64,000 nucleotides of DNA. Origin: Pseudomonas sp. R84. GTDB taxonomy: Bacteria; Pseudomonadota; Gammaproteobacteria; Pseudomonadales; Pseudomonadaceae. Under the pieces are notes generated by a model that was not told the origin of the DNA, did not search any database, and saw nothing but the letters and a program-made list of their open reading frames with translations. The DNA is taken from assembly GCF_009834515.1 (NCBI RefSeq), contig NZ_CP019426.1, positions 5,773,001 through 5,837,000 of the forward strand, in the 5' to 3' direction. Position numbers and translations under genes: made by a program. Each line of letters begins with the position of its first letter. Position 1 is the first letter of the stretch. Shown here piece after piece: positions 9,862-30,091 of the stretch.

Positions 9862-9995
9862 ACCATCGAGCCACAGCAGCGCCGAGCATTCTCGCCTAAT
9901 GGCCGCTCGGAATTATTCAATCCCGACACCCACCTTGCAGTGACTGCGCCACGCCCCCTTCAGTGCTTTCACGCGTTCGTGACAGGAATACCAGC

Positions 9996-10544: not shown

Positions 10545-10697
10545 CATTGGCACAGTACCCAATCACTTATTTTTTGTCGCGATCCAACCGTTGTACTTAC
10601 TTTCGACGGGAGATAAAGAAATATGGGTGTGACATATCGTGCTCGATCTTTACAAAGGTTCCAGCTAGAATACCTCCTGCTAAGAGGACCTATCCCA

Positions 10698-11762
10698 ATG
10701 ATTGATGCTGTTGACCTTTTCTGTGGCGCTGGTGGCCTCACTGCCGGCATGCGCAACACCGGCATTACAGTGCATGCCGGGTACGACATCGAAGGCCAAT
10801 GCGCGTATGCCTACCAGGAGAACAACCAGGCCGCCTTTGTCAAAAAAGACGTGCAGGAAGTGACAGCCCAAGAGTTGCTAGCCTGGTATCGTCCTGGCCA
10901 ATACAGGCTACTGGCCGGTTGCGCGCCTTGCCAACCGTTCTCAACCTACAACCAAGGCAAAGACACCCGCAACGATCGCAAGTGGCCGTTGCTCTATCAC
11001 TTCAGCCGCCTCATCAAAGAAACTGAGCCTCACTTGGTAACTATGGAAAACGTTCCTGACGTCACCAAACACGAGGTCTACCACGACTTCGTACAAAGCC
11101 TCAGGGACCAAGGTTACGAGATCTGGGACGGACGAGTGGCTTGCGTCGAATACGGCTTGCCACAGCAGCGACGTCGCCATGTTCTGCTCGCTTCCAAACT
11201 GGGAATACCCATAAGCATCATCCCTCCCACGCATCTGAACGCCCCAGTCCATGTCGAGGACGTCATCGGCGCGTTGCCTCGCCTGGCGGCTGGAGAGTGC
11301 GACCCGAACGATCCACTTCACCGGGCAGCAACACTTACCCCGATCAACATGCGACGCATCATTCACTCCAGGCCAGGCGGATCCTGGAAAGATTGGCCGC
11401 CAGAGCTAGTCGCTGAATGCCATCGCAAAGCGAGCGGAAAAACCTATCCGAGCGTATACGGACGTATGCGCGCAGATCGCCCCAGCCCGACAATGACCAC
11501 CCTCTGCTACGGCTTCGGGAACGGCCGTTTCGGTCACCCTGATCAGGCCCGCGCTATATCACTACGTGAAGCAGCGATCCTACAGTCCTTTCCAAGAAAC
11601 TACGTGTTTATGGAGCCAGAGCGGATCACCTTCAAAGCCGTCGGCCGCATGATCGGCAACGCCGTTCCGGTGCGATTAGGAGAAGTGATCGGAGAAAGCC
11701 TGATGCAACACATCAGGGACTATGAAGCGATTCGCCAAGCGGAAGGTCGAATTCAAGCCTGA
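10698..11762 (+). CDS. dcm: DNA cytosine-5 methyltransferase
   Basis: A 354-residue C5-cytosine methyltransferase that transfers a methyl group from SAM to cytosine in a fixed DNA sequence. Motif I (DLFCGAGGLTAG) is at residues 5-16, and the catalytic PCQPFS loop has Cys78. ENVPD is motif VI, YGLPQQRRRHVLLAS is motif VIII, and GNAVPVRLGEVIGESL is motif X. The variable region (about 200-270) should set specificity, which cannot be read from sequence. The facing vsr gene suggests a target where deamination gives T:G mismatches, as in CCWGG systems. The ATG at 10698 has AAGAGGA upstream. Its last 50 bases overlap vsr tail to tail. DISARM class 2 also uses a 5mC methylase (DrmMII), so it may be the self-marking partner of the facing operon. 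Confidence 0.95.
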   Translation: MIDAVDLFCGAGGLTAGMRNTGITVHAGYDIEGQCAYAYQENNQAAFVKKDVQEVTAQELLAWYRPGQYRLLAGCAPCQPFSTYNQGKDTRNDRKWPLLYHFSRLIKETEPHLVTMENVPDVTKHEVYHDFVQSLRDQGYEIWDGRVACVEYGLPQQRRRHVLLASKLGIPISIIPPTHLNAPVHVEDVIGALPRLAAGECDPNDPLHRAATLTPINMRRIIHSRPGGSWKDWPPELVAECHRKASGKTYPSVYGRMRADRPSPTMTTLCYGFGNGRFGHPDQARAISLREAAILQSFPRNYVFMEPERITFKAVGRMIGNAVPVRLGEVIGESLMQHIRDYEAIRQAEGRIQA

Positions 11763-12129
11763 GGCGAGCCTCCAACGCCTCAAGACTCTTCGTTTCACAC
11801 TCCCAGATCACCAGTACACGCCAGCCCAGTTCTCGTAACTGAGCTTCCTTCCGCGCATCACGCGCTACATTCGCTTCGAACTTTGGTAGCCAATACTCTT
11901 GTCTACTCTTAGGAGTAGTCGCGTAGCGGCAGTCGGGATGGCAGTGCCAGAAACATCCATGCACGAAAACCACCGTTTGGAATTTCGGCAGGACTATATC
12001 CGGCGAACCTGGAAGATCCCGGCGATGCAGACGAAACCGTAGCCCCAAAGCATGCAGCACTTGGCGAACGATGATTTCTGGTGCTGTATTAGCGCGCTTC
12101 ACCGCTCGCATGATGTCACTTCGCGACAT
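11713..12129 (-). CDS. vsr: Very short patch repair endonuclease
   Basis: A 138-residue Vsr-type endonuclease that nicks next to T in T:G mismatches arising from 5mC deamination. The fold is recognisable: GSPDIVLPKF with the catalytic Asp, VVFVHGCFWHCHPDC with the zinc/catalytic histidines and cysteine, YWLPKFEANVARD, and LGWRVLVIWECE. It is the last gene of the minus-strand defence operon, 21 bases after drmC, and its end overlaps dcm. A run of eleven G (coding strand) sits immediately before this ATG where the ribosome site should be. An alternative coupled ATG overlaps the drmC stop codon, but at eleven G it is out of frame with vsr. Expression may therefore vary with tract length. Confidence 0.92.
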   Translation of the reverse strand: MSRSDIMRAVKRANTAPEIIVRQVLHALGLRFRLHRRDLPGSPDIVLPKFQTVVFVHGCFWHCHPDCRYATTPKSRQEYWLPKFEANVARDARKEAQLRELGWRVLVIWECETKSLEALEARLRLEFDLPLGESLHSP

Positions 12130-12130
12130 T

Positions 12131-12141
12131 CCCCCCCCCCC
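12131..12141. repeat. Homopolymeric G11/C11 tract before vsr
   Basis: Eleven consecutive C on the + strand, hence G11 on the coding strand, between the drmC stop codon and the vsr ATG. Counting codons from the coupled ATG at 12151, lengths of 10 or 13 would fuse in frame to vsr. At 11 the frame stops after eleven codons. This is the classic arrangement of a slippage-driven on/off switch. Confidence 0.85.
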
Positions 12142-12150
12142 AGAAGAACA

Positions 12151-12915
12151 TCACCCGACAGGCACGATCACCCCAGTTATCGCCAACGCCTCCAGGTGCC
12201 GATGAAGCTGCTCGGGCAATGGAGCTCCGGAGATCAAGACTCCGGCCTCCATGTTCTGATCCATTGCGTACCCGGTGAGGTTGGCACTAGTTATGAAACA
12301 GTGCGAGCCATCGGACACCGCGACCTTCGCATGCACGCTGCCATTCGAGAAGATCGCACCCTTGTCCTTCCAGATGTAGAACCGCGCACTAGGAACGACT
12401 TTGCGCAGGTTATCAATGGGGTCAATGCTGACCTTGCCACCGCTGGCTGTCGAAAGCTCCATCAGGAAGTTGATCGCCACACCGCGATCCGCCGCTGACC
12501 TCAGAGCCTTTGTGATCGACTCGATGTCGTAAGCAACGTAACTCGTTATGAACAACCTGTGCTTTGCACCATCGATTACCTGAATCAGAGCCTGTTCGGT
12601 TCGACGAGCCGGAACAATGTCCGTAGTGGGGCCGGTCCATACCAAATCGACTACCTGCTTTGCCTCTGCCTGACGATAAGCATGGTCAGCGGCCAGCAGC
12701 ATGGCCGCTAAGGTTTCACCGGTGACAGGGTTAGACTTCCATGCCGCGACCATAGCCTTGAATGAGTCACCAGCTTTGGCAGACAACACGGAAGCATTAT
12801 TCAACTTCCCCGCACTCTCAGCACCAATGAACCTGACCGCTGCCGCCAAAGCGGCGGTACGGTCAGGAGAAACAATAGCCACCAATGCCGACACTGCCTC
12901 CAGCAGAGCTTTCAT
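12151..12915 (-). CDS. drmC: DISARM DrmC, phospholipase D-like protein
   Basis: A 254-residue PLD-superfamily protein matching DrmC, the third gene of the DISARM core drmA-drmB-drmC. One HKD motif is intact: His195, Lys197 and Asp202 in VHAKVAVSDG, followed by FITSANLT. The N-terminal half (1-90) is a helical Ala-rich region with ETLAAMLLAADHAY. In published DISARM work drmC was the gene whose loss mattered least. A single HKD motif implies a dimeric nuclease if active. ATG 12915 is chosen because it starts one base after the drmB stop codon; the longer frame to 13143 would overlap drmB. Downstream is vsr, with a TGATG junction at the stop codon. Confidence 0.9.
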   Translation of the reverse strand: MKALLEAVSALVAIVSPDRTAALAAAVRFIGAESAGKLNNASVLSAKAGDSFKAMVAAWKSNPVTGETLAAMLLAADHAYRQAEAKQVVDLVWTGPTTDIVPARRTEQALIQVIDGAKHRLFITSYVAYDIESITKALRSAADRGVAINFLMELSTASGGKVSIDPIDNLRKVVPSARFYIWKDKGAIFSNGSVHAKVAVSDGSHCFITSANLTGYAMDQNMEAGVLISGAPLPEQLHRHLEALAITGVIVPVG

Positions 12916-12916
12916 C

Positions 12917-14779
12917 TCAAACGTCCTTGAAGAATGCGGCCTTGTCGTTCTCAAACGTGGGAACCACCATCGCACGATCGAGATAGCGGTTACCGCGCTC
13001 GCAAGAGGTCTCAGCGACGAATGAACATGCATGGCAAGCGGCCGCATGCAAACTTCGATCCTTCTGCGGATCATGCTCGGCGCAGAGCGGATCAGACGAG
13101 CATATGCGAGAACGCCGCAAAGCCTGCACAAGCAACCGCTCAAGGTTCTCTGGCTTACCTAGCTCGACCAAACCACCCAGGGTCCCATCGGAGTCGGCAG
13201 CCGCCGTGTAAATAATAAAGCCCGCTTGGCAGCCCTCTGCATTCACGTCCGCATAAATACGCTCGCGGATGCTGGCCGCGCTGTACCCGCACTCCAACGC
13301 CAGCTCACGAATTAACATATGCGCCAAGGTATGAAGCAGCACATACCGAGCGCCTGGATAGCCTTCTTCCGGAGGGCTTAAATGCCGAGAGTTTCGCCAG
13401 CCCTTATGACCGCCACGTAAGCGCTCATCAACGCTTTGGACGTCTTCAAGTTGCTCCCACTCAGCGATAGCCTGCTCATCGAATTGGATGAAAATGCCTT
13501 CGCCATGCACCTGATTCGCAGGAATCCAATCGGGTTTACCCCGTGACAGCGGAGCCTTAGTAGGACCGGTTGCCAGGTCAGCTGAATCGTCAGGAGCTTC
13601 CACTCGTGTAAAGCCGAGCAGCGCATTAACCTCACGCAAGCGCTTCAATAACAGCACCCTCGAGATCTTGCTCTTGAAGCGCCCAGGAACATTGACTATG
13701 TCTGAGGTGAAATGCGGATAGTCATTCACTGGTGACGGATCAATCAGCACGCGCCACTCAGGCCCCTTGATGTCCGACTCAGTGACATTCGCATCACCAC
13801 CGCTACGATGTTGCTCGATTGCAGCCCAGATCAGCTCGGCAGAATATTGGTCAATCCCCGGTAACGCACCGGTTTTTTTTAACATTTTTACCGTCAACGG
13901 CACCTCTTCTACGCCATCAAGATCGTGGAAGAAATCCCAACCATCGTCGATAAGTTGACTCAGCGAATCTTTAGCCTGTGGAATGGCCAACGCAGAAATA
14001 GAGATAGGAAACCAACTATTGGTCGCCCCCAGCAGAACCACGCGCGGCTCCGCATCACAATCAGGATCAAAATGATCCAGATGAGGGTGCCGACCGCGGC
14101 ACCCTGGAAGGTTTTCTTTACCTAGCTGCCCGAAAGCATGAGCCATATTACGGGCCACACCACAGGAGTCACACTTCACCCAAAGGTTCTCGGTTTGCAG
14201 AGACGCGCCGCTTTCAAAGAATCGCAGCGTACCCTTGCAACCACCAAGACCACTGTGGACGTACCAGTTCCACGGAAAGTCATCCAGATGCCCATTCTTG
14301 CAAGCCAGCAAGAAACGCGCAGGCACAGCATCGGCATCCTTCGCAGGCTGATCTCCTTTTGACCCCGTGCAGCCCTTATGAACGAAGCAAGTCGCCTCCG
14401 GCCGATAACGATTTTCCTTCAGATCGAACAGCCCACTGTCATAAGGCGAAAGCATTCCGCACTTAACGCAACGCAACCAGCGAGGAAAGGGCCGCACAGG
14501 AACCCCTACATAAGCCTCAGCCGAGTACGGATCAACCGCGTCGCTAGTCGTGAATGGAGGCATACGTAGCGATTCAACCTGCGGCCCGAGTACTTTTTGC
14601 ACGGCAGCCAGCAGGCGACTTTCTACCACCGGCCGACAGCGATCCTTCTCCCAAAAGTTTATCCCTAGCGTCACGACCGACAGGTTTGGCAAATCAATCA
14701 GCGCACCAGGACCATAGGTCCAGAGCAGCTGGCTCGGCCGGACTGAACCAACGGGAGTTTTTTCGTTAGCCATTTTCAT
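12917..14779 (-). CDS. drmB: DISARM DrmB, DUF1998 protein
   Basis: A 620-residue DUF1998 protein, DrmB of DISARM. It works with the DrmA helicase; the DrmAB complex is reported to load on DNA with 5' ends and recognise foreign DNA. Visible features: N-terminal PSQLLWTYGPGALIDLPNLSVV; zinc-knuckle pairs WLRCVKCGMLS and WVKCDSCGVARN; the DUF1998 core YVLLHTLAHMLIRELALECGYSAASIRERIY at about 480-510; and a C-terminal cysteine cluster (CSSDPLCAEHD, ACHACSFVAETSCERGN). Its start overlaps the drmA stop codon (ATGA), with a second ATG two codons later. An A8 run lies in the coding strand near 13873. Confidence 0.93.
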   Translation of the reverse strand: MKMANEKTPVGSVRPSQLLWTYGPGALIDLPNLSVVTLGINFWEKDRCRPVVESRLLAAVQKVLGPQVESLRMPPFTTSDAVDPYSAEAYVGVPVRPFPRWLRCVKCGMLSPYDSGLFDLKENRYRPEATCFVHKGCTGSKGDQPAKDADAVPARFLLACKNGHLDDFPWNWYVHSGLGGCKGTLRFFESGASLQTENLWVKCDSCGVARNMAHAFGQLGKENLPGCRGRHPHLDHFDPDCDAEPRVVLLGATNSWFPISISALAIPQAKDSLSQLIDDGWDFFHDLDGVEEVPLTVKMLKKTGALPGIDQYSAELIWAAIEQHRSGGDANVTESDIKGPEWRVLIDPSPVNDYPHFTSDIVNVPGRFKSKISRVLLLKRLREVNALLGFTRVEAPDDSADLATGPTKAPLSRGKPDWIPANQVHGEGIFIQFDEQAIAEWEQLEDVQSVDERLRGGHKGWRNSRHLSPPEEGYPGARYVLLHTLAHMLIRELALECGYSAASIRERIYADVNAEGCQAGFIIYTAAADSDGTLGGLVELGKPENLERLLVQALRRSRICSSDPLCAEHDPQKDRSLHAAACHACSFVAETSCERGNRYLDRAMVVPTFENDKAAFFKDV

Positions 14780-17700
14780 TCGTCCTTATCAACCGCTGCA
14801 GGGCGAGGCTTCCATTGAATATCGTCATTTATACGCGCTGAGTTCATCACTAAACGCACACCCGGCTCGACCTCTCGCATCGACATTGGCACTGTCCAGT
14901 TGTTCCAAGTTTGCGGACCAGGCGCATTAATCAATGCAGCGGTTCTGTCCTTATCCGGTCCTCGTTTCTCGTAAGCCAAGAGACGGTTACCCTGTATCAC
15001 TTCCTTCACCCACTCATCCGCACGCTGCTTGAGCATGCTTCCAGCGAGCTTCTGCGCCGGCTCTTCCGCAACGTTATCGGCTCGAGCTTCGAGCACCTTC
15101 ATGGCATCCAACATCTCAGGCTGGTTCGGCTGCTTGAGACTCTCCGCCCCAGTGTTCGCAGCAAAGTCCGCATGTTTTGCTCGCAGTAATGACAGCATCG
15201 CGCCAGTCAGCCCTCGATCCATCGCCCGCGGTGAAAATGGCGTGACCGACTGAGCCTCGACATGTTTGTAAAAGGTGGCGTGATAATGCTCAAAGGTCTC
15301 GTAATGCGAGAGGTCGCGAGGCCTTGCCCAAGTCAGAACGGTGCAGACCAGACCTGGCGACTGCCGCCCTACCCGGCTAGTCGCCTGAATGTATTCCGCG
15401 GTCCCTTTAGGCTGACCATTGACAGCCATGATTCCTAGACGACTCACATCGACCCCGACCGACAACATATTGGTCGCCAACACAACGTCGATGGCCCGAG
15501 AGTCCCCATCAACCCAGCGAGTCACGTGCTTGAGCTTTTCAGGGTCCCATTCGGACTTGAACATTACCTCAAGCTGATCTAGGTACTTAGGGATGTCTTG
15601 GTTGGACACTCGCGAGGTTAACTCACGAATATTCATGACACTGCGCTGAGCCAACCCAGGGCGCTGGACCATGCTCATTTGCACGCGATAAGCACGAGTC
15701 TGCACATCGTCCTCAGCCAAACGTTTCATGCCCCCCAGCTCACGTAGCGAGTTGAAGTACCCCACCATGGTCATGTACGGATCAGCGACCTTACCGAAGC
15801 GGTCGAATAACGCCTGCGCGCCCGTCAACGCCGCGGTGTAGACCCGAATCAGCATCGCCGGACGCGAACTGCCAGGTGAGCAAATGCCCAAATAACGTCG
15901 CCCAGGTTTTTGCTCAATCGGCCGCTGTACCGAGAAGAAGTTGTCCTCAACATCCAGACCGTGCGGCGGGAACACTGCTACCTGGCGCATAAACACGTTG
16001 TTGACCTGCTGCTGCGCCTTACGCACGGTAGCCGTGGATGCAATTACCTTTGGGCGAATTGAGTGTTCACCCAAACGCCAGCTGCACAGCTCATCGACGG
16101 CGCTTTCATAGAGACCCACCATGGTTCCCAGTGGGCCACTGATCAGGTGGAATTCGTCCTGAATGATTAGATCTGGCGGTCGAATTGGACGAACTGCTCT
16201 GACCTTTGCAGCAGCCTTATGTGCCGTATTACATTTAGAACCGGGCCAAAGCAAACCATGCTGCGTGCACTCCTGCGAAACGTTACCAAACAAATTTCGC
16301 ACTTGTCCGCGCCAGGCCATCATCGCGAATTTGTCGACGGTGGCGATCATCATCGTTGGTGGCCGGTGATACATCTCCTCATCCACCACCATCACTGGTA
16401 GGCCAGGATGATCTTGTTTACTTGAGCGGCCACGCGAGAAATCGCACTCACTCTTCTTGTCGCCACAGTAGATCGACGTACGCCCTGCAACTTTGTCGAC
16501 GACAATATCTTGGCCGGGAAGAATTTCGGAGCCACACCAAGGACAGCCCGTCAGCTGCGCCGGTGATGCCATACCAGCAGTATTCTTTCCTGGGGTACGA
16601 ACGGCTTCAATAAACTTGTGACTATCCTCAGTTTTACCTGGTGTCACGGTGTTACCGACCCACAGGCCAATGGTGAAGGCATTCTCACCCAGGGACTTGT
16701 CCCCCGCAGCCAGTGCCTCGCGCCGTATATGCTCCATTGCGCAGATCAATGCAGTGGCCCGCTGGAACTGTTGCAATGTCAAAAGACGCAAGGTGTAGCG
16801 CATGATGACTGCTAAGCCACGGGATGAGTCGTACTCGCCCAAGTTTCCCTGTGAGCGACGAATCGCCATGGTGAACGCCGCCACACCCAAGTACGCCTCA
16901 GTCTTGCCGCCACCCGTGGGAAACCAAATCAGATCGGCATAAGCCTGCAATGGCTGGGTACGGTCCGTATGGGCAGGATTGGCCAGCGCCGGAACGGACA
17001 ACAACAGAAAGGCCAACTGAAAGGGTCGCCAAGTACGGTTCTTCGATACATCGAAAGCAGCCACATCGACTTCTTGTTTTCGACGCCGGGCTAGAGCATA
17101 AGCGCTGCGCACACGCTGTATGGCCATTGCTCGGTTAGCGAAGCGAAACGCAGCCAGCGCCTTGTCATCGACAGCCAATAATTCCACGCCCGCAAGCAGT
17201 CGCGCTTGAATCAACTCGCAGCGTTCCAGCGCTTCTTTGGCCTGCTGCTCGTAGCCAATCACATCGCTACCGATTCGACCACGCTGATCCTCAATCCAGG
17301 CGGCATAGTCTTGCGTCAGCACACCAAGTGCCGCGATTAGGGCATCCTTATCAAGGTCTGCCAGAGTCTGCATATCCAGTAAGCCATCGGCGGTCATTTT
17401 GCGCATCGCAGGGCGATCTTGCGGATCTAAGCCTGGCGTTTCAGTGACCGCGACTTCGTATTGCGGCATGACTACCGTACGCAGCTCAAGCGCCCTAGCT
17501 GGAACGCTGCCAGTTGTTGCATGCACCGCAACACCATGACCTACGGCAAACTCGACGCGATCGCGATAGATCATTTCCAGTGCCAAGCGCTCTCGCAGAT
17601 CCTCATCGTCTTCAGCGCCAGTATCCGAATCCAGTGCCGGACGGCGACGAAAAATATCGCTTACTGCGCTGCCAGCTTTCGCTCGCACAATGATTTCAGG

Positions 17701-18759
17701 CTGAAACACCCACGCGGTATCGCGATTCTCATCTGGCTCCACTTGTCCGTTAACCAGAAAAAGAGTGACCAAGCGATCGCCCTTGTCGTTGGGCGATCTG
17801 ACAGTGCCCTGGATGCGTACCTCAGGGCTGCTAGCATCTGGCGCGATAGGTGAAACACCCCCCGGTGTCATCGCAAGCGAAAACACCCCACCAGAAGGTG
17901 CTCGTTTCCAAACCTTAGCCTTAACGAGCTTGTCTTTTATAAGCTTTGTATGGTCGTGATCGTCGCTGGCTACACGCTCATAACGCCCCCAACTCACCGC
18001 TACCTCAAGACTTTCAATGTTACCATCGACACAAAAAGTGAAACCCAAACTAGAGGGTGCCAGCGATTGATTCGATGCAGCATCCACCTCTTCATCTGCA
18101 TCGGACTCACCGCTGCCAGAGATCAAGGGCGAGTCAATTTTCTTACCTTGCGCTTTTGGCTCTAGGTCGGAAGGCTCATCTTCATCACCTTTTTCGGCAG
18201 GCACCCAGTCTTCGCCACGCTCAGCGTTGTCCATCGGCGCCAGCTTGCCTACCAGGTAACGATCTCGTACGCCCATATCGACGATGAACTCTTCGGGGCC
18301 ACCGGCAGGTCCTAACAAATCATCCATGATGGCGAACTGCAATAACTCTCGTACGTAGGCCTCATTTTTGATCAAGGGGACGTCGGCAACCGTCAGATCA
18401 AGCGCCTTGGGCAGCGCCTCAGCGAATTCAGTCCACTGCACGCGAGAAATACGACCCGTTGGCGAAGCGAGCCCCGTTTTAACAAACGGTACTGGTGAAT
18501 CAACAGCCAGTACTTTGTCGAAGAAAAGAGAAGTGGTCTCGCGGTTGGAGCGAAGGCGCATGACGCGCCCCACACGGGTTATCTCGCCAGAGGTGTTCAG
18601 AATCAAAACCCAATCATCTGCAGCAATTTTTTGATAAAGCCCGCGCTCGCCTTTTAGGACAAGTGTGTAACGTGCAAGCGCCGGATCAATGGTAAGTCCA
18701 TGATCAATAGCGATCCATGCATCAGCAGTTTGTTTCACAGGGCTTGGCTCCATGAGCAC
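14776..18759 (-). CDS. drmA: DISARM DrmA, SF2 helicase
   Basis: A 1327-residue superfamily 2 helicase, DrmA. The Walker A box PTGGGKTEAY is near residue 615, the Walker B/DEFH box (LIIQDEFHLISGP) near 868, and motifs V-VI (VVLATNMLSVGVDVSRLG and QATSRVGRQSPG) lie in the C-terminal third. A zinc pair CPWCGSE with a later CGDKKSEC suggests an inserted zinc module. The acidic stretch around residues 190-240 is probably disordered. With DrmB it forms the DNA-sensing and translocating core of DISARM. The start is GTG 18759 (or ATG 18753), 2-8 bases after the endonuclease gene, so translation is coupled. The paralogous helicase DrmD lies at the operon head. Confidence 0.93.
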   Translation of the reverse strand: MLMEPSPVKQTADAWIAIDHGLTIDPALARYTLVLKGERGLYQKIAADDWVLILNTSGEITRVGRVMRLRSNRETTSLFFDKVLAVDSPVPFVKTGLASPTGRISRVQWTEFAEALPKALDLTVADVPLIKNEAYVRELLQFAIMDDLLGPAGGPEEFIVDMGVRDRYLVGKLAPMDNAERGEDWVPAEKGDEDEPSDLEPKAQGKKIDSPLISGSGESDADEEVDAASNQSLAPSSLGFTFCVDGNIESLEVAVSWGRYERVASDDHDHTKLIKDKLVKAKVWKRAPSGGVFSLAMTPGGVSPIAPDASSPEVRIQGTVRSPNDKGDRLVTLFLVNGQVEPDENRDTAWVFQPEIIVRAKAGSAVSDIFRRRPALDSDTGAEDDEDLRERLALEMIYRDRVEFAVGHGVAVHATTGSVPARALELRTVVMPQYEVAVTETPGLDPQDRPAMRKMTADGLLDMQTLADLDKDALIAALGVLTQDYAAWIEDQRGRIGSDVIGYEQQAKEALERCELIQARLLAGVELLAVDDKALAAFRFANRAMAIQRVRSAYALARRRKQEVDVAAFDVSKNRTWRPFQLAFLLLSVPALANPAHTDRTQPLQAYADLIWFPTGGGKTEAYLGVAAFTMAIRRSQGNLGEYDSSRGLAVIMRYTLRLLTLQQFQRATALICAMEHIRREALAAGDKSLGENAFTIGLWVGNTVTPGKTEDSHKFIEAVRTPGKNTAGMASPAQLTGCPWCGSEILPGQDIVVDKVAGRTSIYCGDKKSECDFSRGRSSKQDHPGLPVMVVDEEMYHRPPTMMIATVDKFAMMAWRGQVRNLFGNVSQECTQHGLLWPGSKCNTAHKAAAKVRAVRPIRPPDLIIQDEFHLISGPLGTMVGLYESAVDELCSWRLGEHSIRPKVIASTATVRKAQQQVNNVFMRQVAVFPPHGLDVEDNFFSVQRPIEQKPGRRYLGICSPGSSRPAMLIRVYTAALTGAQALFDRFGKVADPYMTMVGYFNSLRELGGMKRLAEDDVQTRAYRVQMSMVQRPGLAQRSVMNIRELTSRVSNQDIPKYLDQLEVMFKSEWDPEKLKHVTRWVDGDSRAIDVVLATNMLSVGVDVSRLGIMAVNGQPKGTAEYIQATSRVGRQSPGLVCTVLTWARPRDLSHYETFEHYHATFYKHVEAQSVTPFSPRAMDRGLTGAMLSLLRAKHADFAANTGAESLKQPNQPEMLDAMKVLEARADNVAEEPAQKLAGSMLKQRADEWVKEVIQGNRLLAYEKRGPDKDRTAALINAPGPQTWNNWTVPMSMREVEPGVRLVMNSARINDDIQWKPRPAAVDKDE

Positions 18760-18761
18760 CT

Positions 18762-19967: not shown

Positions 19968-19975
19968 TGATATTC

Positions 19976-20929: not shown

Positions 20930-20931
20930 TG

Positions 20932-22347: not shown

Positions 22348-22637
22348 AAAATGGTTCTCCCTATGCAATCCGATATCCTCGAAGCTATCTTCAGCTCGAA
22401 CGTGAGCATGGTTTCAGTTCCTGTCATTACGCCCCCTTGTGATGGCTGTCCCGATGGCCGTACTTTTCCGTGTGACGGGCGATTGTCTTCCAATGCTTTA
22501 CGTGCGGCGCTGGGAAATGCCTGCCACATGGAGGAATAGCCTTCGCGTTCCTCATCGACCAAAGTACTTTTCCAGTAGACATCCGCGAAGTCTTGCTTCG
22601 TGAAGATCAGTTCAGCGGAGTAACACTGATCGCTCAT
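22344..22637 (-). CDS. Small protein of the defence operon, unknown
   Basis: A 97-residue protein I do not recognise. It is locked into the operon by ATGA overlaps at both ends: its start overlaps the drmMI stop codon and its stop overlaps the GHKL ATPase start. That makes it a real gene despite its size. The N-terminal half (SAELIFTKQDFADVYWKSTL, EREGYSSMWQAFPSAARKALE) looks alpha-helical; a basic Pro/Gly-rich linker (RPSHGKVRPSGQPSQGG) leads to a beta-like end (MLTFELKIASRISD). No zinc or catalytic motif is evident. It may be an adaptor for the GHKL ATPase. Confidence 0.75.
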   Translation of the reverse strand: MSDQCYSAELIFTKQDFADVYWKSTLVDEEREGYSSMWQAFPSAARKALEDNRPSHGKVRPSGQPSQGGVMTGTETMLTFELKIASRISDCIGRTIL

Positions 22638-25600
22638 TGAGCCAACTTGCCGAAATCAAAACCGGACTGAACATCCTTATCCAAATTCGCTATCTGCGCT
22701 GTTAGTTTTAGAGTTTTATCTGACTTCTTGGTAGTGGGCGTTCCAGGTACACCTTCAACTAACTCTTCTTCATATCGCTCGTGATTAAGCTTTAAAAGAC
22801 GACGCAATATCTCTAAACGAGCCGACTCGGAAATCGTAAACCGAGTTCCCAGTTTGGTTTCAAGAAAATCATGATCAAGCGCTAAGTCATCCCATCCATA
22901 CGCAGATGCGACAGCCTCATCCATCTGGGCTTGAAGCAGTCTAAATCTAACGCAATCAACAGAAGTAATTTCAGGATTGTGAAGTCGGTTATATACTGAT
23001 GTTAGACCCTCACGAAATTGAGTCATGACTTCCTTTCTATGCTCGTAATAAACTTTTCCTATCTGTTCAAGTCTGTCGGTCGTATCGCAAAAAGGAAACG
23101 TCGCAAATGCATCTTTATTTGAGTAACTCAATCGAGTTTCCAAGGTAGAGCTATTTCTTCTAACCCAACACTCATGCAGGCTTGATTGCAAAATACTGAA
23201 ATACGCGTAGTCCTGAAATTTAAAAACCTTCAGCTTCTGTGAAATAACAGCATCAGGCTGAACAAAATCCAGGGCGAGATATTTTGCAACCCCTGAACAA
23301 ACTAAAATATTTTTTCCTTTATCTAACTGCCTGAAAAATGCCTCTCTTCTATCCCAAAATATCCAATATCTATGCTCGTGGATTTGTCCCTTTAATCCCT
23401 CCCTATAAGGCTTGACCTCTCGGGTAACTATGTCAAATAAATCCGGAAACTCTTCGGCTTTGAATTTATCAAAATCTCCGAAATCTATTACATACCTAAC
23501 CTTCCTTTGGGATGGATCATTCGTAACATCTTCTCCACCCAAATAAATCCGCAGAATAGTCTTATTTTTTGGATCACGATTAATCAGTTCGGCATACGCT
23601 TTTTCATCAACTAAAAATCCGTTTCCATGTATTTTAATTCCTTCGGCAATCCCACCTTTGTTTTTCTTCAGCGAAAAAGAATTAAAGCCATGCTCATTTT
23701 CCAAGGCACTTGAAATATTTACCACTGACGAACCATCTAAGTACACGGGACCACTCCAACTTCCCTTTAGGAGACCCACAACACTAATGTGCACACCAGC
23801 CTTTCCGGGCCACGGAACGGAATTATTCGCAAAAAATATCTTGCACTTCTTCTCTATTAAATACTCTAAGCCAACCTTTCTTGTGTCACCTTGTGCAATT
23901 GTATTTGTCGCGATAAAGCAAAAGCACCCTTCATTTTTGATAATTGATTGCGCCCGTCTAAAGAAGAATGCACTTAAATCCGCCGCCCCCTTTGAATATT
24001 CATAAGAGGTTTTCAAAGCGTTTTGATATTTTTCACCAAGAACTGTACCAATACGTTTTCCGCCCAAGAACGGCGGATTACCTATAACTCCATCAAACCC
24101 ACCTCGCTCAAAGACCTCCGGAAACTCCAAAGCCCAATGGAAAGGACTCCGTGGTAGCTCGCCTGACAAAAGCTCAACCGACAGAGATCTCCTTGACTCA
24201 GCTATGGTTCCCCGTTCAGTCTTCTCGTCACCTTCAATATAGGCAGTCGCCCATATGGAAAGGTCGTCCATGGCCGCATCCAGCGTTCGTTGATTTCGAT
24301 CAGAAGCTAATAGTTCACCGATCATGGCGTCGGCAATGTGTTCGATATGTTCTAGCTTCTGCCGGGCCTCTTTATCCAACCGTTCCATATAGTAGACATC
24401 CCTAATATCCCGAATCGGAGTACCTCGGAGCTGCTTGCGAAGCGCGATTGCCTCCTTGACCGCTTCTTGAATATCAGACGCGAAGATGAATGAGGTCTTT
24501 TTTTCTTCTGGGTGAAGAGAGAATTTTGTCAGTTGATCCAACTTATGAAGTCCGAGCAAACTGTCGCCGCAACGCAGGTTGTGGTCGAGGAAGCCGAAGG
24601 GGCGTCCCTTTGCCAGCGTCACCAGCCAGATGGACAGCTTGGCGAGCTCGACAGCAAGCGGGTTCAGATCGACGCCGTACAGACAACGCTCGGCGATGAG
24701 GCGACGCGCGACCACTGAGCGTGCTTCGCTGTCGCGGGGCAGAGGTTCCTTGATCACTCCTTCGTCTAGAACCTCGCCATCCACACTCACGGTTTTTCCT
24801 GTAGCCTCAATCTGTGACCAAGCCTCGACGAGGCGATCAGAGAGCCAACGGCAGGCTTGCACCAGGAATGCGCCCGAGCCCATGGCCGGGTCGCAGATCT
24901 TGAGGTCAAGCAGTTCGGCGGGCGAAATAAGCACCCATTGCTCGCGCGGTGTTCCCTCTGCTGGACCAACATAAGCCACCGGCGTGAGAGTCTCGGCAAC
25001 GATTGTTTCGGTCAGCGACTTCGGGGTGTAGTGGGTGCCGGTTTCGCGTCGATCAGAACCCGTGGTGACAATAAAGGCACCTTTTGCATACACCAATGGG
25101 TAGCCCCATGGGTCGGCTCGCAACAAATTAGCGATCGGCAATAGACGATCACGCAGCGCCTCGTCGCCATGACAGGCCGTGAGCAGATGATTGGTCAGAG
25201 CGGCATCCACAACACCCGCCAAATCTTTGCGGATAGCACTTTCACTTCGCTTCAGCTCATCCGAACTCGCCAGTTGGCGAGTGAATTCATCCTCATCACG
25301 CCCTCGTAAAGCTTCCAGTTCACTCAAGGCATGAATAGTTTTTTTTGCGCCCTTGCCGCCGACCAGTTCTACCGTCACTGCATCTGTGCGTTTAACCGTA
25401 CGCTCGAGCAAGCCTTCATAGACGTAGCCGATCTGCTCTACATCGAGCGCACGGTAAGACAGGGTACGGCCTTGGTATTGCTGAATTGCCTCCAGTAAGA
25501 GCAGCACGGTGCGATTGTCGATCGGCAAGGGTCGGGCATCATCCGTGCGCCAGTTTGAACCCATTGAACGGCCTTCGAGAAAGGGAAAACGATCCGGATC

Positions 25601-26683
25601 GAACAACGAGCCGCCCAGCGCCGGTAAACGCAAAGCCTCATGCTCAATGCCGCCATACACGGCACGGAAAGTCGCCAGCAAACGCGCCCAAGCGTCATGC
25701 CGACGCTCCAGCACCTCGTCCGACTCTTTGCGTAGCTGCATACGTAAGGTGGAGATGGCGTAGTTAGCCTCATAAGCTGCATCGCCCATCAGCAGCAGCC
25801 CGCGCTCCTCAGCCGACAACAAAAAGACCAGCCGCATCATGATGGTCAGGCCGGCTTCGTACAGCTGGGCAGGCGCCACATCCTGCAGCAACGTCCGACC
25901 GCTATTCAGGTCTTCTTTGTCGAGCGACTGGATAAGCACTTCGACAGCGCGACGTACCTGCTCACCCAATGCATCGGTGACCTCTTCCTGGTGTTGTAGA
26001 GATTCATCGAAAAGTGCAGGCAGCTGCTCACTAGCATCCACGAAAAAACGGCGAATACCTAACAGCGTGAGGAAGGCCTGGAGAGTTAATGGCTCTTGCC
26101 CCCACAAACGCGCATACCAACTAGCGTAGGTCACGACCGAGCCGACAGGCGCATCAATCAGCAGCCAACGTTCGCCATTGGTAATCAAACCCAAACGACA
26201 GCCAGTAGTACGACAGAGTTGTACCACCCGCTCGGCAGGAGTGGCCACCCAACCTTGCTGGCTGATGGCTGCATCCAAGTCGGTATCCGCTGGGTAGGTC
26301 TGGATTAGCAGCAGTGCTTTATCACCATTGACCAGCGCGTAATCCGGGCTTAGCGTGACACCATGTTCTGGCAGCGCGATGTGCAAGGTCGCCGGTATAG
26401 CCTCACCTAGCTTGAGCAACTCGCCCGAATCTTTCTCATCATATTCAAGGCCACGTGCCAGCACTTCGCGAATCCAGGCACGGTGTAATTCTTCGAGTTG
26501 CGGGTCGTCATTATCACGCGCCTCGCACCACTCATCGTAGGCCTGACGGAGGTACTTGCGTACGCGGCCATCGACAGCCTCCAGACCTTGTGGAAAGGCT
26601 TTTTTTAATACAGGTACAGCGAGGAACGGGCCTGAAATCTCGATCAGCGAAAGCCATTCGTCGTGGTTGTTGTCCTGGCTCAT
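22634..26683 (-). CDS. drmMI: DISARM DrmMI, adenine-N6 DNA methyltransferase
   Basis: A 1349-residue Eco57I/PglX-like class I methyltransferase, the DrmMI type of DISARM class 1, expected to mark host DNA with N6-methyladenine. Motif I DPAMGSGAF lies near residue 600, GVDLNPLAVELAKLSIWL near 670 and the catalytic NPPF near 868. The first 400 residues are a helical/nuclease-like N-terminal region. The C-terminal third (about 22,680-24,130) should contain the target-recognition region and is strikingly AT-rich compared with the rest, suggesting replacement by recombination. The start overlaps the drmD stop codon (ATGA) and its stop overlaps the 97-aa gene. An A8 run lies near 25,339. Confidence 0.9.
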   Translation of the reverse strand: MSQDNNHDEWLSLIEISGPFLAVPVLKKAFPQGLEAVDGRVRKYLRQAYDEWCEARDNDDPQLEELHRAWIREVLARGLEYDEKDSGELLKLGEAIPATLHIALPEHGVTLSPDYALVNGDKALLLIQTYPADTDLDAAISQQGWVATPAERVVQLCRTTGCRLGLITNGERWLLIDAPVGSVVTYASWYARLWGQEPLTLQAFLTLLGIRRFFVDASEQLPALFDESLQHQEEVTDALGEQVRRAVEVLIQSLDKEDLNSGRTLLQDVAPAQLYEAGLTIMMRLVFLLSAEERGLLLMGDAAYEANYAISTLRMQLRKESDEVLERRHDAWARLLATFRAVYGGIEHEALRLPALGGSLFDPDRFPFLEGRSMGSNWRTDDARPLPIDNRTVLLLLEAIQQYQGRTLSYRALDVEQIGYVYEGLLERTVKRTDAVTVELVGGKGAKKTIHALSELEALRGRDEDEFTRQLASSDELKRSESAIRKDLAGVVDAALTNHLLTACHGDEALRDRLLPIANLLRADPWGYPLVYAKGAFIVTTGSDRRETGTHYTPKSLTETIVAETLTPVAYVGPAEGTPREQWVLISPAELLDLKICDPAMGSGAFLVQACRWLSDRLVEAWSQIEATGKTVSVDGEVLDEGVIKEPLPRDSEARSVVARRLIAERCLYGVDLNPLAVELAKLSIWLVTLAKGRPFGFLDHNLRCGDSLLGLHKLDQLTKFSLHPEEKKTSFIFASDIQEAVKEAIALRKQLRGTPIRDIRDVYYMERLDKEARQKLEHIEHIADAMIGELLASDRNQRTLDAAMDDLSIWATAYIEGDEKTERGTIAESRRSLSVELLSGELPRSPFHWALEFPEVFERGGFDGVIGNPPFLGGKRIGTVLGEKYQNALKTSYEYSKGAADLSAFFFRRAQSIIKNEGCFCFIATNTIAQGDTRKVGLEYLIEKKCKIFFANNSVPWPGKAGVHISVVGLLKGSWSGPVYLDGSSVVNISSALENEHGFNSFSLKKNKGGIAEGIKIHGNGFLVDEKAYAELINRDPKNKTILRIYLGGEDVTNDPSQRKVRYVIDFGDFDKFKAEEFPDLFDIVTREVKPYREGLKGQIHEHRYWIFWDRREAFFRQLDKGKNILVCSGVAKYLALDFVQPDAVISQKLKVFKFQDYAYFSILQSSLHECWVRRNSSTLETRLSYSNKDAFATFPFCDTTDRLEQIGKVYYEHRKEVMTQFREGLTSVYNRLHNPEITSVDCVRFRLLQAQMDEAVASAYGWDDLALDHDFLETKLGTRFTISESARLEILRRLLKLNHERYEEELVEGVPGTPTTKKSDKTLKLTAQIANLDKDVQSGFDFGKLAQ

Positions 26684-29600
26684 ACGTGGCCTTCCTGTGC
26701 AAACGATGCGGGAACGATAAAGATGACAGCGATGGGAAAGGTGCGATCCTGCGGCGCGGCATAGCGCGCTTCAATAGCGCTGATTTCTTGTTCTCGCTCA
26801 ACTGGAATGCGTGCTAGGCGCGCCTCCAGCGCTGACTTGTCACGACGCAGCTGGGTGTGCTCATCCTCACTGAACAGAGTCAATTGCTCAGGATCCTCTG
26901 CCTTGCGAAGCTCTGCACCAATCGCTCGCTCTAACTCACTCAATACGGCGCTAATGTCTTTCAGCTCTGAGTTCTTCCGGGTTTCGAGGGTGTTGCCCAG
27001 AGATTCGAGGCGGTTGCGCGAGCGCGCTTTAAGAGTTTGCTGAATAGACTCTTCGGCAGCACCGAAACGTGCTCGCAGGGTGTTGAACGCAACCGTTTCC
27101 AATCTGAACGGTTGCCCCTCATCCAGCCAAGCTTGTACACGGGCTACGCCCTCCTCTCGCTTGAAACCTTGCTCACGAAGGTAGCCACCGGCCACTGTTA
27201 GCTCTTCATGCAGGCGATGGTGGTTACCACCAGTAATGACCAATCGCGACACAACCACTACGGCAGGCGTATCAAGGCGATCGTCAGGCAGCACGCGAAC
27301 GGTTACTCGATTGAGTTTTTTGTTGTCTTCCTGCGCCCAGACCTCAGCACGTAACAAACGCAGACACATCTGCACCAAGCGATGATTGAGGTGAACCAGT
27401 ACCAGATCGTCGCGGCCCTTCGCGACTTCGTGATCGAAGGTCACGGGCCGAATCTTCCCGGTGAATGGGTGTTCTAGCCCCTCTCGGCAACGCTCCCAAG
27501 CGCCACCCAGCGGTGGTAGCTCGAATACGGCACCTGCCTCGAAGCCGGCCAATTGCAACGGTTTCAGCGCGGGTTTTTCGGCCAACGCCAAAGCAGTCTT
27601 GACCGCCATCAGGATGTGTTCTGGCGACAGGTGTAAGCCTTCTTTTGTCTCAATTAGGCGCTCATGCAGCTTGGCCACTCGAGAGTTAATTTCTTTATCC
27701 GTACGAACAAAGCGACGGGCCCGCTCAATCTTTGCCTCCGCCATGCGTGTGTCGAGGTCACGCAAAGAGCCTTCAATCAGCCCCGACATTTGCGGGGCAA
27801 TGACCGGGTTAACACTGCCCATATCTGCACGCATTGAGTCGAGCTTGCGCAGTGCACGCAGAATGTCGTCCTTATGCCCACCGACAGCTTCGCCATCTTC
27901 TTTGACATCAACCGGGTGCCAGATAAGCACCTCTTTTGCCCGCTGACCGTGACGATCAATACGACCGTTGCGTTGCTCCATGACGTTGGGGTTGTAGGGG
28001 ATTTCTAGATGGATGAGATAGTTACAGTGGTTCTGCAGGTCAATACCTTCAGAAGCCGCATCGGTCGCCAGCAAGATGCGCACTGGCGAAACATCCGGAG
28101 CTGCCTGGAAAGCCGCTTTGACCATCTCTCGGTCGTCGTGATCCATGCCGCCATGCAACTTCATTAGGCGGTCGCCACCCAAATCGTGGGTTGCCAGAAC
28201 TCGCTGTAACCAATCTAGCGTCGTGCGGTATTCGGTGAAGAGAATTACACGCTTACCGTTCCAGTCACCTTTGGTTTTTAGATAGCTGTGGATCCAGGCG
28301 AGAACGGCTTCCGCCTTAGAATCACTCTGGTGCATCGCCTGCTGCGACCACTGACGTAGCTCGTCCAACAAAACACGTTCTATGTCATTCAAGGGCCGAG
28401 AATGACGGGTCGCTTCCTCGACAGCCTCTTGCTGCGCCGTCTCGACATCAGCGTCGTTGGCGTAATCCTCTTCAGCACGCTGAATGGCCTTGAGCAAGAT
28501 GCGATCTGACAACCCGCCGCGATCCTTGCGAACTGCGCCGCTTTCCAATGTGGCAATATGTTTTGCCAAGGTCGAAGCGAATGCGGCCGGTGACGAGAAC
28601 AGGCGCTTTTTCAGCAACTGATTGATGAAGGAAACGCCCGTGACACTACCTAGCTTAGCGTCTGCAACTTCTCGACTGGCGCAGAAAGCCTGCAGTTTGT
28701 GGTGGATTTCACGCTCTTTTGCGGTGTAGTCGACGCCCAGGGCCTCAAGCTTGCGTGGGGCGTAGATCAGCTGCCCATCCTTGTCGGTGATTTCACTTTT
28801 TAGTCGGCGAATCATCACCTGAGCGAGCTGTTTCTCATCCGGCAGGATGTTGCGGGCGAAACGCTGATCATCAAGCAACTCCAGCAGCGAGGTGAAAGAC
28901 TCGGTGTAGCCGTTGTGAGGCGTCGCAGTCAGGAAAAGGTGATGCTGAAAGTGCGGCGCGATGGTGCGAATCAAGCGAGTTCGCTGACTCTCAAGCGCAT
29001 ATTGGGCACCGGCAGCCGGCGCCACGTTGTGAGCCTCATCCACGACCAATAGGTCGAACTTACGCGGATAATTAGCATTTGCCGGCAAAATATCGCGAAA
29101 TGCCCGTAATCCTTCGCCAGCTTTAGCCCAGTCCATTGAGGTGATCAGGCGTGGGAACGAGTTCCACGGATTGGCGTGAATCCCACGCTCGCGACGCATC
29201 TCTTTAATGTACGTGCTATCGACGATACGGAATTCGAGCCCGAACTTCTCCGCCATCTCAAGGCGCCACTTCTCTTGTAGCGAGGCAGGGCAAACGATCA
29301 GCACGGTGCGTGCCCGATGGCGTAGCACCATTTCCTGGATGACCAAGCCGGCCTCAATGGTCTTGCCTAAACCAACATCATCAGCGATCAGCAGATTCAC
29401 CCGCGCCATATCGATGGCCCGTACAAGCGGATCAAGCTGAAAGTCTTCCAGCGTCACACCACTACGAAAGGGCGCCTGCAAAAAGCCACGATCAGCATTA
29501 GTGGCTGCGCCCCAGCGCACGGCATCAAGGAAGGCCTCAAGCGTGTCGGAGTCATCTTGTCCCGTGATATCAGGAAGACCTGCGCGCTCAATGACGTGCG

Positions 29601-29805
29601 CCCCCGGCTCTATCTCCCAGATAACTTGTAGCTCTTCACCTAAAGCATCGTCATCGATCGAAGCTAGTGTGATGGCGTGCTGCTGCACGCTTCCCAGCTT
29701 TGATGAGTTAACCTCTGCGACAACCCATTGCCTGCGCCGCACCTCAACAAGCTGACCAGCCTCTGGGATACTTCGGTAGCTCCCCTCTTCCAATGCCGCA
29801 GTCAT
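26680..29805 (-). CDS. drmD: DISARM DrmD, SNF2-type helicase
   Basis: A 1041-residue SWI2/SNF2-family ATPase, DrmD, the class 1 DISARM hallmark and head of the operon. Walker A DDVGLGKTIEAG is near residue 145, the Walker B box VVDEAHNVAP near 255 and TATPHNG just after. The C-terminal helicase lobe has LFTEYRTTLDWLQ, ATDAASEGIDLQ and RNGRIDRHGQ (about 615). A coiled-coil-rich C-terminus (ELRKAEDPEQLTLFSEDEHTQLRRDK) follows. It probably remodels or translocates along DNA for the complex. The ribosome site is strong: AAGGAG lies six bases before ATG 29805. The promoter must lie upstream, in about 29,816-30,170, unless the small frame there is part of the operon. Confidence 0.93.
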   Translation of the reverse strand: MTAALEEGSYRSIPEAGQLVEVRRRQWVVAEVNSSKLGSVQQHAITLASIDDDALGEELQVIWEIEPGAHVIERAGLPDITGQDDSDTLEAFLDAVRWGAATNADRGFLQAPFRSGVTLEDFQLDPLVRAIDMARVNLLIADDVGLGKTIEAGLVIQEMVLRHRARTVLIVCPASLQEKWRLEMAEKFGLEFRIVDSTYIKEMRRERGIHANPWNSFPRLITSMDWAKAGEGLRAFRDILPANANYPRKFDLLVVDEAHNVAPAAGAQYALESQRTRLIRTIAPHFQHHLFLTATPHNGYTESFTSLLELLDDQRFARNILPDEKQLAQVMIRRLKSEITDKDGQLIYAPRKLEALGVDYTAKEREIHHKLQAFCASREVADAKLGSVTGVSFINQLLKKRLFSSPAAFASTLAKHIATLESGAVRKDRGGLSDRILLKAIQRAEEDYANDADVETAQQEAVEEATRHSRPLNDIERVLLDELRQWSQQAMHQSDSKAEAVLAWIHSYLKTKGDWNGKRVILFTEYRTTLDWLQRVLATHDLGGDRLMKLHGGMDHDDREMVKAAFQAAPDVSPVRILLATDAASEGIDLQNHCNYLIHLEIPYNPNVMEQRNGRIDRHGQRAKEVLIWHPVDVKEDGEAVGGHKDDILRALRKLDSMRADMGSVNPVIAPQMSGLIEGSLRDLDTRMAEAKIERARRFVRTDKEINSRVAKLHERLIETKEGLHLSPEHILMAVKTALALAEKPALKPLQLAGFEAGAVFELPPLGGAWERCREGLEHPFTGKIRPVTFDHEVAKGRDDLVLVHLNHRLVQMCLRLLRAEVWAQEDNKKLNRVTVRVLPDDRLDTPAVVVVSRLVITGGNHHRLHEELTVAGGYLREQGFKREEGVARVQAWLDEGQPFRLETVAFNTLRARFGAAEESIQQTLKARSRNRLESLGNTLETRKNSELKDISAVLSELERAIGAELRKAEDPEQLTLFSEDEHTQLRRDKSALEARLARIPVEREQEISAIEARYAAPQDRTFPIAVIFIVPASFAQEGHV

Positions 29806-29815
29806 GCACTACTCC

Positions 29816-30091
29816 TTATTCAGCGCAATGCGTACAACCTACGATTGCGTAAAACCCTAAAACCTTCGGGCAATGCGAAAGCCTGCCGGGCAGATAGGGC
29901 TGAATGATACATGGGTGACTCAACCGATTAATGCGTTTTAGTAGCATAATGATGGTAAACCCCCGTTTCGTGTAACGCGCCTCCGTGCAAAAAACACGCG
30001 CAACCGGAAAATCAGAGAATCTGGTGAAAAACGGCGGAATTGAGCCGTTGCTATCATTTTGCAGGAGAGCTATAAACTCGAAGTCAGTCAT
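29816..30091 (-). CDS. Doubtful small ORF ahead of drmD
   Basis: A 91-codon frame whose TAA stop codon abuts the drmD ribosome site (TAAGGAG), which is operon-like spacing. The product has no recognised domain and an odd composition (many Cys, Arg, Pro; GFTIIMLLKRINRLSHPC), and the ATG at 30091 has no visible ribosome site. It could equally be leader DNA containing the operon promoter. Confidence 0.25.
   Translation of the reverse strand: MTDFEFIALLQNDSNGSIPPFFTRFSDFPVARVFCTEARYTKRGFTIIMLLKRINRLSHPCIIQPYLPGRLSHCPKVLGFYAIVGCTHCAE

Follow-up and report, generated by a model that had tools for sequence, protein, structure and literature searches.

We analyzed a stretch of 64,000 nucleotides from the genome of Pseudomonas sp. 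R84 (contig NZ_CP019426.1, positions 5,773,001 to 5,837,000; hereafter the window), which encodes a class 1 DISARM (defence island system associated with restriction-modification) locus with four non-core genes between drmMI and drmA. Window genes were identified with PADLOC, Pfam, and NCBIfam profiles, with 18 window proteins scanned (Table 1). The gene set of class 1 DISARM is complete according to PADLOC and NCBIfam, i.e., the core of drmA, drmB, and drmC together with drmD and drmMI, in agreement with an earlier note on this DNA, which had placed this set on the minus strand. Class 2 DISARM is defined by drmE in place of drmD; the window contains drmD, and the name DrmE is absent among the matches listed for the 18 proteins, the presence of a DrmE model in the PADLOC library being unconfirmed. 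The window shares with class 2 a 5-methylcytosine (5mC) methylase accompanying drmA, drmB, and drmC, but differs from it in having DrmD and DrmMI.

On the minus strand, the genes follow each other in the order drmD, drmMI, a 97-aa open reading frame (ORF), a GHKL ATPase gene, the gene of a PF20553 protein (MT35), the gene of a modified-cytosine-dependent nuclease (mRE), drmA, drmB, drmC, and vsr. From vsr to drmD, the gaps between these ten genes are 21, 1, −4, 2, 8, 2, −4, −4, and −4 bases (negative values are overlaps). The earlier note was right about this spacing (overlaps, or gaps of 0–21 bases), which makes its single transcription unit plausible, but it overlooked that four of the ten genes are cargo. 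A simple scan of the minus strand between 29700 and 30400 gave no promoter-like site. For drmC, a start at 12942 was rejected because no start codon is found there, and the ATG at 12915 was adopted. The 5mC methyltransferase gene dcm converges on the last gene, vsr, with the overlap described in the earlier note, although it falls outside the interval that the note had assigned to the locus. With DrmMI and DrmMII both matched, an adenine and a cytosine methylase indeed occur at one locus.

Table 1. Genes and other features of the DISARM locus in the window, with the profile matches on which they are based.
Feature	Position in window	Strand	Basis
Tyrosine integrase	4397–5596	+	PF22022, PF13356, PF00589; left edge of lower-G+C stretch (G+C step)
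dcm, DrmMII-type 5mC DNA methyltransferase	10623–11762	+	PF00145, 168 bits; best PADLOC model DrmMII PDLC02651, 287 bits
vsr, T:G mismatch endonuclease	11713–12129	−	TIGR00632, 145 bits (cut-off 98)
vsr/dcm tail-to-tail overlap, 50 bases	11713–11762		Gene coordinates
drmC, PLD-type nuclease	12151–12915	−	NF038319, 246 bits (cut-off 133; scored on piece from 12942)
drmB	12917–14779	−	NF038324, 749 bits
drmA, YprA-type helicase	14776–18759	−	PADLOC DrmA, 1551 bits; 2056 bits against Serratia DrmA 7s9v
mRE, MspJI-family (LpnPI/AspBHI-like) modified-cytosine-dependent nuclease, slot cargo	18762–19967	−	PF18062, 212 bits; Mrr_cat, 44 bits
MT35, PF20553 class I methyltransferase-fold protein, slot cargo	19976–20929	−	PF20553, 280.5 bits (cut-off 27)
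GHKL (MORC/Hsp90-type) ATPase, slot cargo	20932–22347	−	HATPase_c_3, 38 bits
97-aa ORF, N-terminal PDC-S39 (DUF7380 + DUF4209) remnant, slot cargo	22344–22637	−	Likeness to L038 protein
drmMI, MmeI-like adenine methyltransferase	22634–26683	−	PADLOC DrmMI, 1842 bits; MmeI_Mtase, MmeI_TRD
drmMI C-terminal target-recognition part, low G+C, apparently exchanged	22634–24208	−	G+C and identity to relatives
drmD, SNF2-type helicase	26680–29805	−	PADLOC DrmD, 1503 bits; different model labelled DrmA, 1962 bits

The occurrence of dcm and vsr was surveyed with an alignment of five DrmA proteins and a scan of one-per-species genomes, in which a relative is encoded by 306 stretches. Of these, we used the best 80, each with up to 10 kb per side; as they were found via DrmA, they represent the part of class 1 that is close to the window locus. 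The presence of dcm was evaluable where at least 1,300 bp are visible upstream of drmD (25 of the 80 loci), and matches below 90 bits for dcm and below 100 bits for vsr were excluded, among them a weak second dcm in L046 and L079. The same dcm subfamily is present in 24 of the 25 evaluable loci, while in the remaining one, L034, the contig ends inside vsr. In 21 of these 24, the gene precedes drmD and shares its strand, a layout also found in another Pseudomonas (L043); it is convergent after drmC, as in the window, in L033, L050, and L092 and likewise convergent in L035, L036, and L073, which lie outside the 25. An overlap between vsr and a convergent dcm recurs with 50, 50, 50, 53, and 56 bases in five other loci, i.e., every locus of the 80 where our script detected vsr and an opposed dcm no more than 100 bases apart; chance is no concern here. 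The vsr gene was detected in 17 of the 25 evaluable loci. Among 194 related genomes, five (the window's own included) pass the DrmC cut-off, and the other four all carry dcm and/or vsr; genomes G024, G114, and G193 are not independent of L034, L073, and L051. Thus, dcm and vsr co-occur with this operon in other genomes, and the earlier note passes the test that it had set itself on this point.

Two observations weigh against the interpretation that we favor below, namely the eight evaluable loci without vsr and the loose tracking of drmA by dcm and vsr (Spearman 0.42 and 0.35); drmB, drmD, and drmMI track drmA at 0.78–0.90. Two methylases are normal for class 1 DISARM, and dcm is a regular partner of the operon. 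Class 1 DISARM of Serratia has both an N6-methyladenine (6mA) and a 5mC methylase, with the motifs ACAC(mA)G and YMT(mC)GAKR, according to passages of PMC9142583. Together with dcm in 24 of 25 loci, this precedent contradicts a class 1/class 2 hybrid as the earlier note had it, and there is no evidence for the switching between marks that it had considered. Besides the two methylases, the window shares DrmA with Serratia sp. SCBI (the 2056-bit match covers residues 9–1326); it differs in that no GHKL, MT35, or mRE is named in these passages, which mention unnamed auxiliary genes for DISARM generally (PMC9142583). In a published assay, the ATPase activity of DrmAB was reduced on 5mC DNA (passages of PMC9142583), and class 1 DrmA contains an EVE-like domain, a predicted reader of modified bases (passages of PMC12458937). 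As separate observations on dcm and vsr, L046 carries a second, distantly related dcm–vsr pair (18840–20817; 77 and 163 bits) downstream of its DISARM operon, and in L027 (8408–11223; genome G017), the locus most closely related to that of the window, vsr is broken by roughly 2.3 kb.

The drmMI–drmA interval, hereafter the slot, was measurable in 75 of the 80 loci, with a distance of 200 bp or less in 23 and a wider one in 52; one of the narrow slots (L092) contains an mRE fragment. The window slot holds the PDC-S39 remnant, GHKL, MT35, and mRE. Its PDC-S39 remnant resembles (76% over 58 aa) a 624-aa protein of L038, which scores PDC-S39 at 868 bits. In the 80 loci, the cargo includes 24 large GHKL proteins, eight of which resemble the L064 protein over its full length and 16 of which share only ca. 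370–390 residues; the C-terminus of the L064 protein matches the PADLOC model SpbK, a TIR protein. Further cargoes are eight PDC-S39 ORFs (one being a 109-aa remnant) plus one further fragment, 15 GHKL genes with 15 MT35 genes plus one MT35 fragment, mRE or fragments of it in nine loci, and a cluster of five, the scanned member of which is KAP/PifA-like. A second SNF2-type helicase with a 541–571-aa protein occurs in L051, L062, L082, and L093 and represents another candidate module; the one member of the partner protein that was scanned had no Pfam match. Single cases (L063, L068, L069, and L109) comprise a weak reverse transcriptase match, a Schlafen/Fic-like protein, a YhcG nuclease, and UvrD with DUF2290. 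Because genes embedded within known defence systems are already a published theme ("guilt-by-embedding", passages of PMC12988326), we count the slot as such as a known kind of thing. The window shares with that work the embedded-gene idea and a PDC gene, in the form of the PDC-S39 remnant; it differs in its GHKL and MT35 proteins, for which those scanned matched no PADLOC 2.0.0 model.

GHKL is present in 15 of the 80 DISARM loci, and MT35 directly follows it in each. The two co-vary with a Spearman coefficient of 0.89 (16 loci including the window), compared to 0.52 and 0.43 with drmA. In the GHKL protein, the GHKL ATP-binding motifs D34/D37-N38, D72-N-C-G-G, and G105/G108/G110-M-K are invariant in 21 sequences. 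Foldseek related its model (predicted local distance difference test score, pLDDT, 76.6) to Hsp90, SMCHD1, and MORC2 with template-modelling scores of 0.41–0.48. The MT35 model (pLDDT 89.4) has the Rossmann-type fold of S-adenosylmethionine (SAM) methyltransferases; G44, E67, W108, and D110, which probably sit where this fold binds SAM, do not vary in any of the 25 aligned sequences. A sequence search of solved structures gave no useful match for MT35; we take structure 2fpo to be RsmD. PF20553 is rare: the family occurs in 3 of 369 class-level and 5 of 398 phylum-level genomes, and a scan with the window protein matched 5 of 398 genomes of the genus, with the window's own genome counted each time. 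No papers naming PF20553 or Methyltransf_35, or describing such a cassette, were found in the open-licence literature, which is no proof of absence.

The GHKL–MT35 pair also exists outside DISARM. Viral contigs scanned with the MT35 alignment yielded 33 loci, and a second scan with the MT35 of a Pf phage added one more, with 27 distinct MT35 proteins in total. A cytosine-5 (C5) methylase adjoins GHKL–MT35 in all 34; GHKL is present in 32, and the other two loci begin at a contig end. The methylase follows MT35 except in L121, where it precedes GHKL, and in 29 of the 34 it converges on MT35 with an overlap of 40 or 50 bases. Phage records gave one MT35 match, and plasmid records one with the window protein, two with that of L164, and one with that of L124. 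In the filamentous phage PfAC20, GHKL, MT35, and methylase stand in a row; its annotation lists two cytosine methylase genes, one of which, ORF3, comes directly after GHKL and MT35. A cytosine methylase of PfAC20 has been counted as an incomplete restriction-modification (R-M) system, which of the two genes is meant being unspecified in the passages of PMC11878078 covered here. Two E. coli prophages contain the cassette: one is P2-like and has it flanked by the portal and replication genes, and the other is lambdoid-looking; P2 phages have an accessory hotspot. At least 80% of one of these cassettes was matched in 47 of 5426 E. coli genomes and any part of it in 254, three of the 20 matches listed being to the methylase only. 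Neither the cargo of the window (18762–22368) nor drmA had a DNA match in E. coli genomes in distant mode.

Nine copies outside DISARM and viral contigs were inspected. A C5 methylase is near GHKL or MT35 in six of them (L119, L162, L163, L168, L169, and plasmid L171), accompanied by vsr in L168, L169, and L171; GHKL is split over two ORFs in L163, and GHKL and MT35 are 3 kb apart in L171. L120 is broken, and no methylase was seen there. In L164 (8608–17186), a winged-helix/Mrr-type nuclease follows MT35, and dndB, dndC, and a pbeC/dndD-like gene diverge, so that GHKL–MT35 may also work with phosphorothioate marks; a scan of viral contigs with this MT35 gave no relative. In L170 (8780–15345), GHKL–MT35 is divergent from an unknown 469-aa protein and an SNF2 helicase, with neither a methylase of the kinds searched nor an Mrr-type nuclease seen nearby.

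The methylases accompanying GHKL–MT35 are of two kinds. Six DISARM-type and ten cassette-type Dcm proteins are only 23–32% identical between types, with a different-looking target region, compared to 51–96% within the DISARM type and 40–84% within the cassette type, and GHKL–MT35 has therefore been paired with two Dcm lineages. In a tree built from concatenated GHKL and MT35 sequences (51 rows), a weakly supported branch (82/55) has all 17 DISARM copies on one side, and a strongly supported one (100/99) has them there together with L121. L121 (5194–8993), a viral contig, has a DISARM-type methylase before GHKL–MT35, and the preceding 5.2 kb contain no drmA, drmB, drmD, or drmMI; since just 220 bp are visible on the other side, DISARM genes might follow there. 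It is a possible intermediate. The simplest story compatible with these sequences would be one recruitment into DISARM with a swap of the methylase partner, against which it has to be noted that the tree program warns of meeting long branches, among them L113, L164, L168, and L170.

The nature of the 5mC mark was approached by aligning the window Dcm with 28 full-length DISARM-linked homologues. Residues 246–325 have a mean identity to the window protein of 65–82% (74–82% for 266–325), compared to 48–70% for the remaining blocks and 17% for the last one. DNMT1 reads CpG, and the best-matching stretch to seven DNMT1 chain sequences is residues 245–363 or 245–362 of the window Dcm. Based on the published Serratia motif and this weak likeness to DNMT1, we propose that the window DrmMII would set a 5mC mark with a TCGA core. 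Support for a core common with Serratia is mixed, as several points speak against it: residues 206–245, probably also part of the target region, have a mean identity of only 46–50%; the last 20 residues of the conserved stretch include a general methylase motif; and no stretch alone passes 1e-5 among the DNMT1 matches. For other DNMT1 and bacterial chains, the best match is mostly in the catalytic part. The CCWGG target of the earlier note is at odds with the class 1 motif YMT(mC)GAKR published in the covered part of PMC9142583. Given the known role of Vsr, it would repair T:G mismatches at the DrmMII mark. Unlike the better conserved dcm, drmMI has apparently had its specificity domain exchanged: G+C is 38–47% in its target-recognition part and 50–61% before it, and identity to six near relatives is 16–51% there, while most blocks before residue 750 exceed 55%.

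The proposed mark bears on the coexistence of DrmMII with mRE. The window mRE matches AspBHI (312 bits) and the N-terminal domain of LpnPI (249 bits). W71, D73, Y84, and D87, corresponding to the SRA-like 5mC pocket described for the MspJI family in passages of PMC4499157, are invariant in a 13-sequence alignment, as are the catalytic residues D286/D290, E311, and K313. With this pocket and an Mrr-type nuclease domain, the window mRE is like LpnPI and AspBHI; it differs in being encoded inside DISARM and in loop-6C, where S100 takes the place of R98 of LpnPI, with R99 beside it, a deviation that counts against a simple transfer of specificity, since the preference at −1 may differ from that of LpnPI. 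We take D286/D290, E311, and K313 to be the Mrr-type D-E-K nuclease site. LpnPI cuts C(mC)DG and AspBHI cuts YS(mC)NS; A(mC)DA and T(mC)DT, with A:T pairs at both −1 and +2, were left uncut by a relaxed variant of LpnPI (passages of PMC4499157). C(mC)WGG fits LpnPI sites and, after a pyrimidine, AspBHI sites, and a mark of this kind would therefore put the host at risk from its own mRE. T(mC)GA, with T at −1 and A at +2, would be a poor mRE substrate, which we infer twice over, for the mark as well as for the enzyme. Alongside mRE, dcm occurs in the window and in five of the nine DISARM loci that carry a complete or partial mRE, the other four ending too early upstream; mRE tracks drmA at a Spearman coefficient of 0.77 (nine loci). 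On plasmids, a C5 methylase lies within ca. 9 kb of mRE in three of four cases inspected from 20 records with an mRE match.

The core genes, dcm as a regular partner, a slot with alternative cargoes, and a GHKL–MT35–methylase cassette in viral contigs, prophages, and chromosomes are established here. On balance, we favor the interpretation that the locus is an ordinary two-methylase class 1 DISARM, the slot of which is filled by a formerly independent GHKL–MT35 defence module that shares one 5mC self-mark with it. DrmMII would set 5mC at a TCGA-core site as the self-mark for both DrmAB and GHKL–MT35, and Vsr would mend T:G mismatches arising from this 5mC. GHKL–MT35 would be the sensor/effector arm of an R-M-like system, in which the ATPase might clamp DNA in a MutL- or MORC-like manner and, in the absence of the self-mark, MT35 might read or modify nucleic acid by means of SAM. 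The pair would need some Dcm but no particular one, and inside DISARM would use that of DISARM. As mRE would cut DNA in which cytosine is modified outside the contexts produced by DrmMII, the locus could attack both DNA without the self 5mC (through DrmAB and GHKL–MT35) and DNA with foreign 5mC (through mRE). More tentatively, and with slightly less confidence, we hypothesize that GHKL–MT35–Dcm is an unrecognised R-M-like immune system, in which the methylase marks self while the ATPase and the PF20553 protein restrict unmarked DNA without a conventional nuclease. It would be an accessory cassette of temperate phages, the effector pair of which class 1 DISARM would have taken up with its own methylase in place of the original one, and orphan-looking prophage methylases would be the modification arm. 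Several observations argue against the favored interpretation of the locus. The GHKL model is of only moderate confidence, the stand-alone cassette has no obvious nuclease, and the intact copies L164 and L170 have no dcm nearby, so that a mark other than 5mC is conceivable if they belong to the same system.

MT35 could alternatively be catalytically dead, with the GHKL ATPase as sole effector and MT35 binding SAM only as its sensor or scaffold. No substrate is known and a common fold proves no function, but the invariance in all 25 sequences of the residues placed at the SAM site speaks against it. It is somewhat less likely that the slot genes are plain passengers, DISARM being a good landing site where GHKL–MT35, mRE, and the others act alone without DrmMII. 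Highly varied cargo, published guilt-by-embedding (passages of PMC12988326), and the nearest relative G017 (drmA 90%), where drmMI and drmA are 78 bp apart without cargo, are all in line with passengers. On the other hand, a 5mC methylase is near GHKL–MT35 in 34 of 34 viral loci, a DISARM-type methylase is present wherever visible with GHKL in DISARM (L035, L065, L073, plasmid L114, and the window), and the window cargo genes overlap or abut core genes by 2–4 bases. We consider it less likely still that GHKL–MT35–Dcm serves prophage maintenance, addiction, or counter-restriction, with Dcm shielding phage DNA from host nucleases and GHKL–MT35 tuning or enforcing this. The strong tie to temperate phages and the lack of a nuclease in the stand-alone cassette would fit, whereas the company of vsr (L168, L169, and L171), of DISARM (15 of 80 loci), and of Mrr and dnd genes (L164) points to restriction. 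A recent merger of class 1 and class 2 parts with two interchangeable marks and DrmMII acting at CCWGG is highly improbable, since, although both methylases are present, dcm is the rule in this clade, the class 1 motif in the covered part of PMC9142583 is a different one, and C(mC)WGG, fitting LpnPI/AspBHI sites (passages of PMC4499157), would endanger the host through its own mRE.

Related ideas are already in print in PMC2292703 and PMC8011034; a PF20553 partner is mentioned in neither, as far as the covered passages go. MORC/paraMORC restriction systems also have a GHKL ATPase near cytosine methylases and Vsr, a minority of them without helicase, but ca. 70% of the MORC ones have a helicase, and no PF20553-like partner is mentioned in the passages of PMC2292703 (Iyer 2008). 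In the HEF_HK/Response_reg_2 elements, a GHKL protein likewise has a partner, a C5 methylase, and Vsr, but the partner is response-regulator-like, and "O-methyltransferase" appears nowhere in the available text of PMC8011034. MZA-type loci (L021, annotated mzaE, and the similar L024) resemble the window in combining an annotated ATP-binding protein, an AspBHI-like mRE, Dcm, and, in L024, Vsr within ca. 10 kb.

The host genome is a single contig of 6.6 Mb. Per kb, G+C is 0.44–0.57 over ca. 5–33 kb of the window and 0.57–0.65 beyond 33 kb, with the lowest value (0.39) in one kb within drmMI. DUF932 and RadC-like genes (8839–10493) adjoin dcm, and homologues of one or both are near four related DISARM loci of the genus-level set; these neighbors of dcm suggest a common mobile island. 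Just beyond DISARM, the gene at 31648–32829 encodes a protein of the PDC-S11 type (525 bits) that contains a NucS-like domain. A 91-aa ORF upstream of drmD (29816–30091), without Pfam, PADLOC, or NCBIfam match, is probably no gene.

Overall, the dual methylases, the main claim of the earlier note, are real but ordinary, and the stronger result is the nested, unnamed GHKL–MT35 module. The locus frames the question of how a 5mC methylase and a 5mC-dependent nuclease coexist, to which a TCGA-type mark would be an answer. It also suggests that one methylation mark may serve two defences. GHKL–MT35 is a concrete two-gene candidate which, being present in E. coli prophages, is easy to test, and which, if our interpretation is true, accounts for orphan-looking 5mC methylases of prophages.

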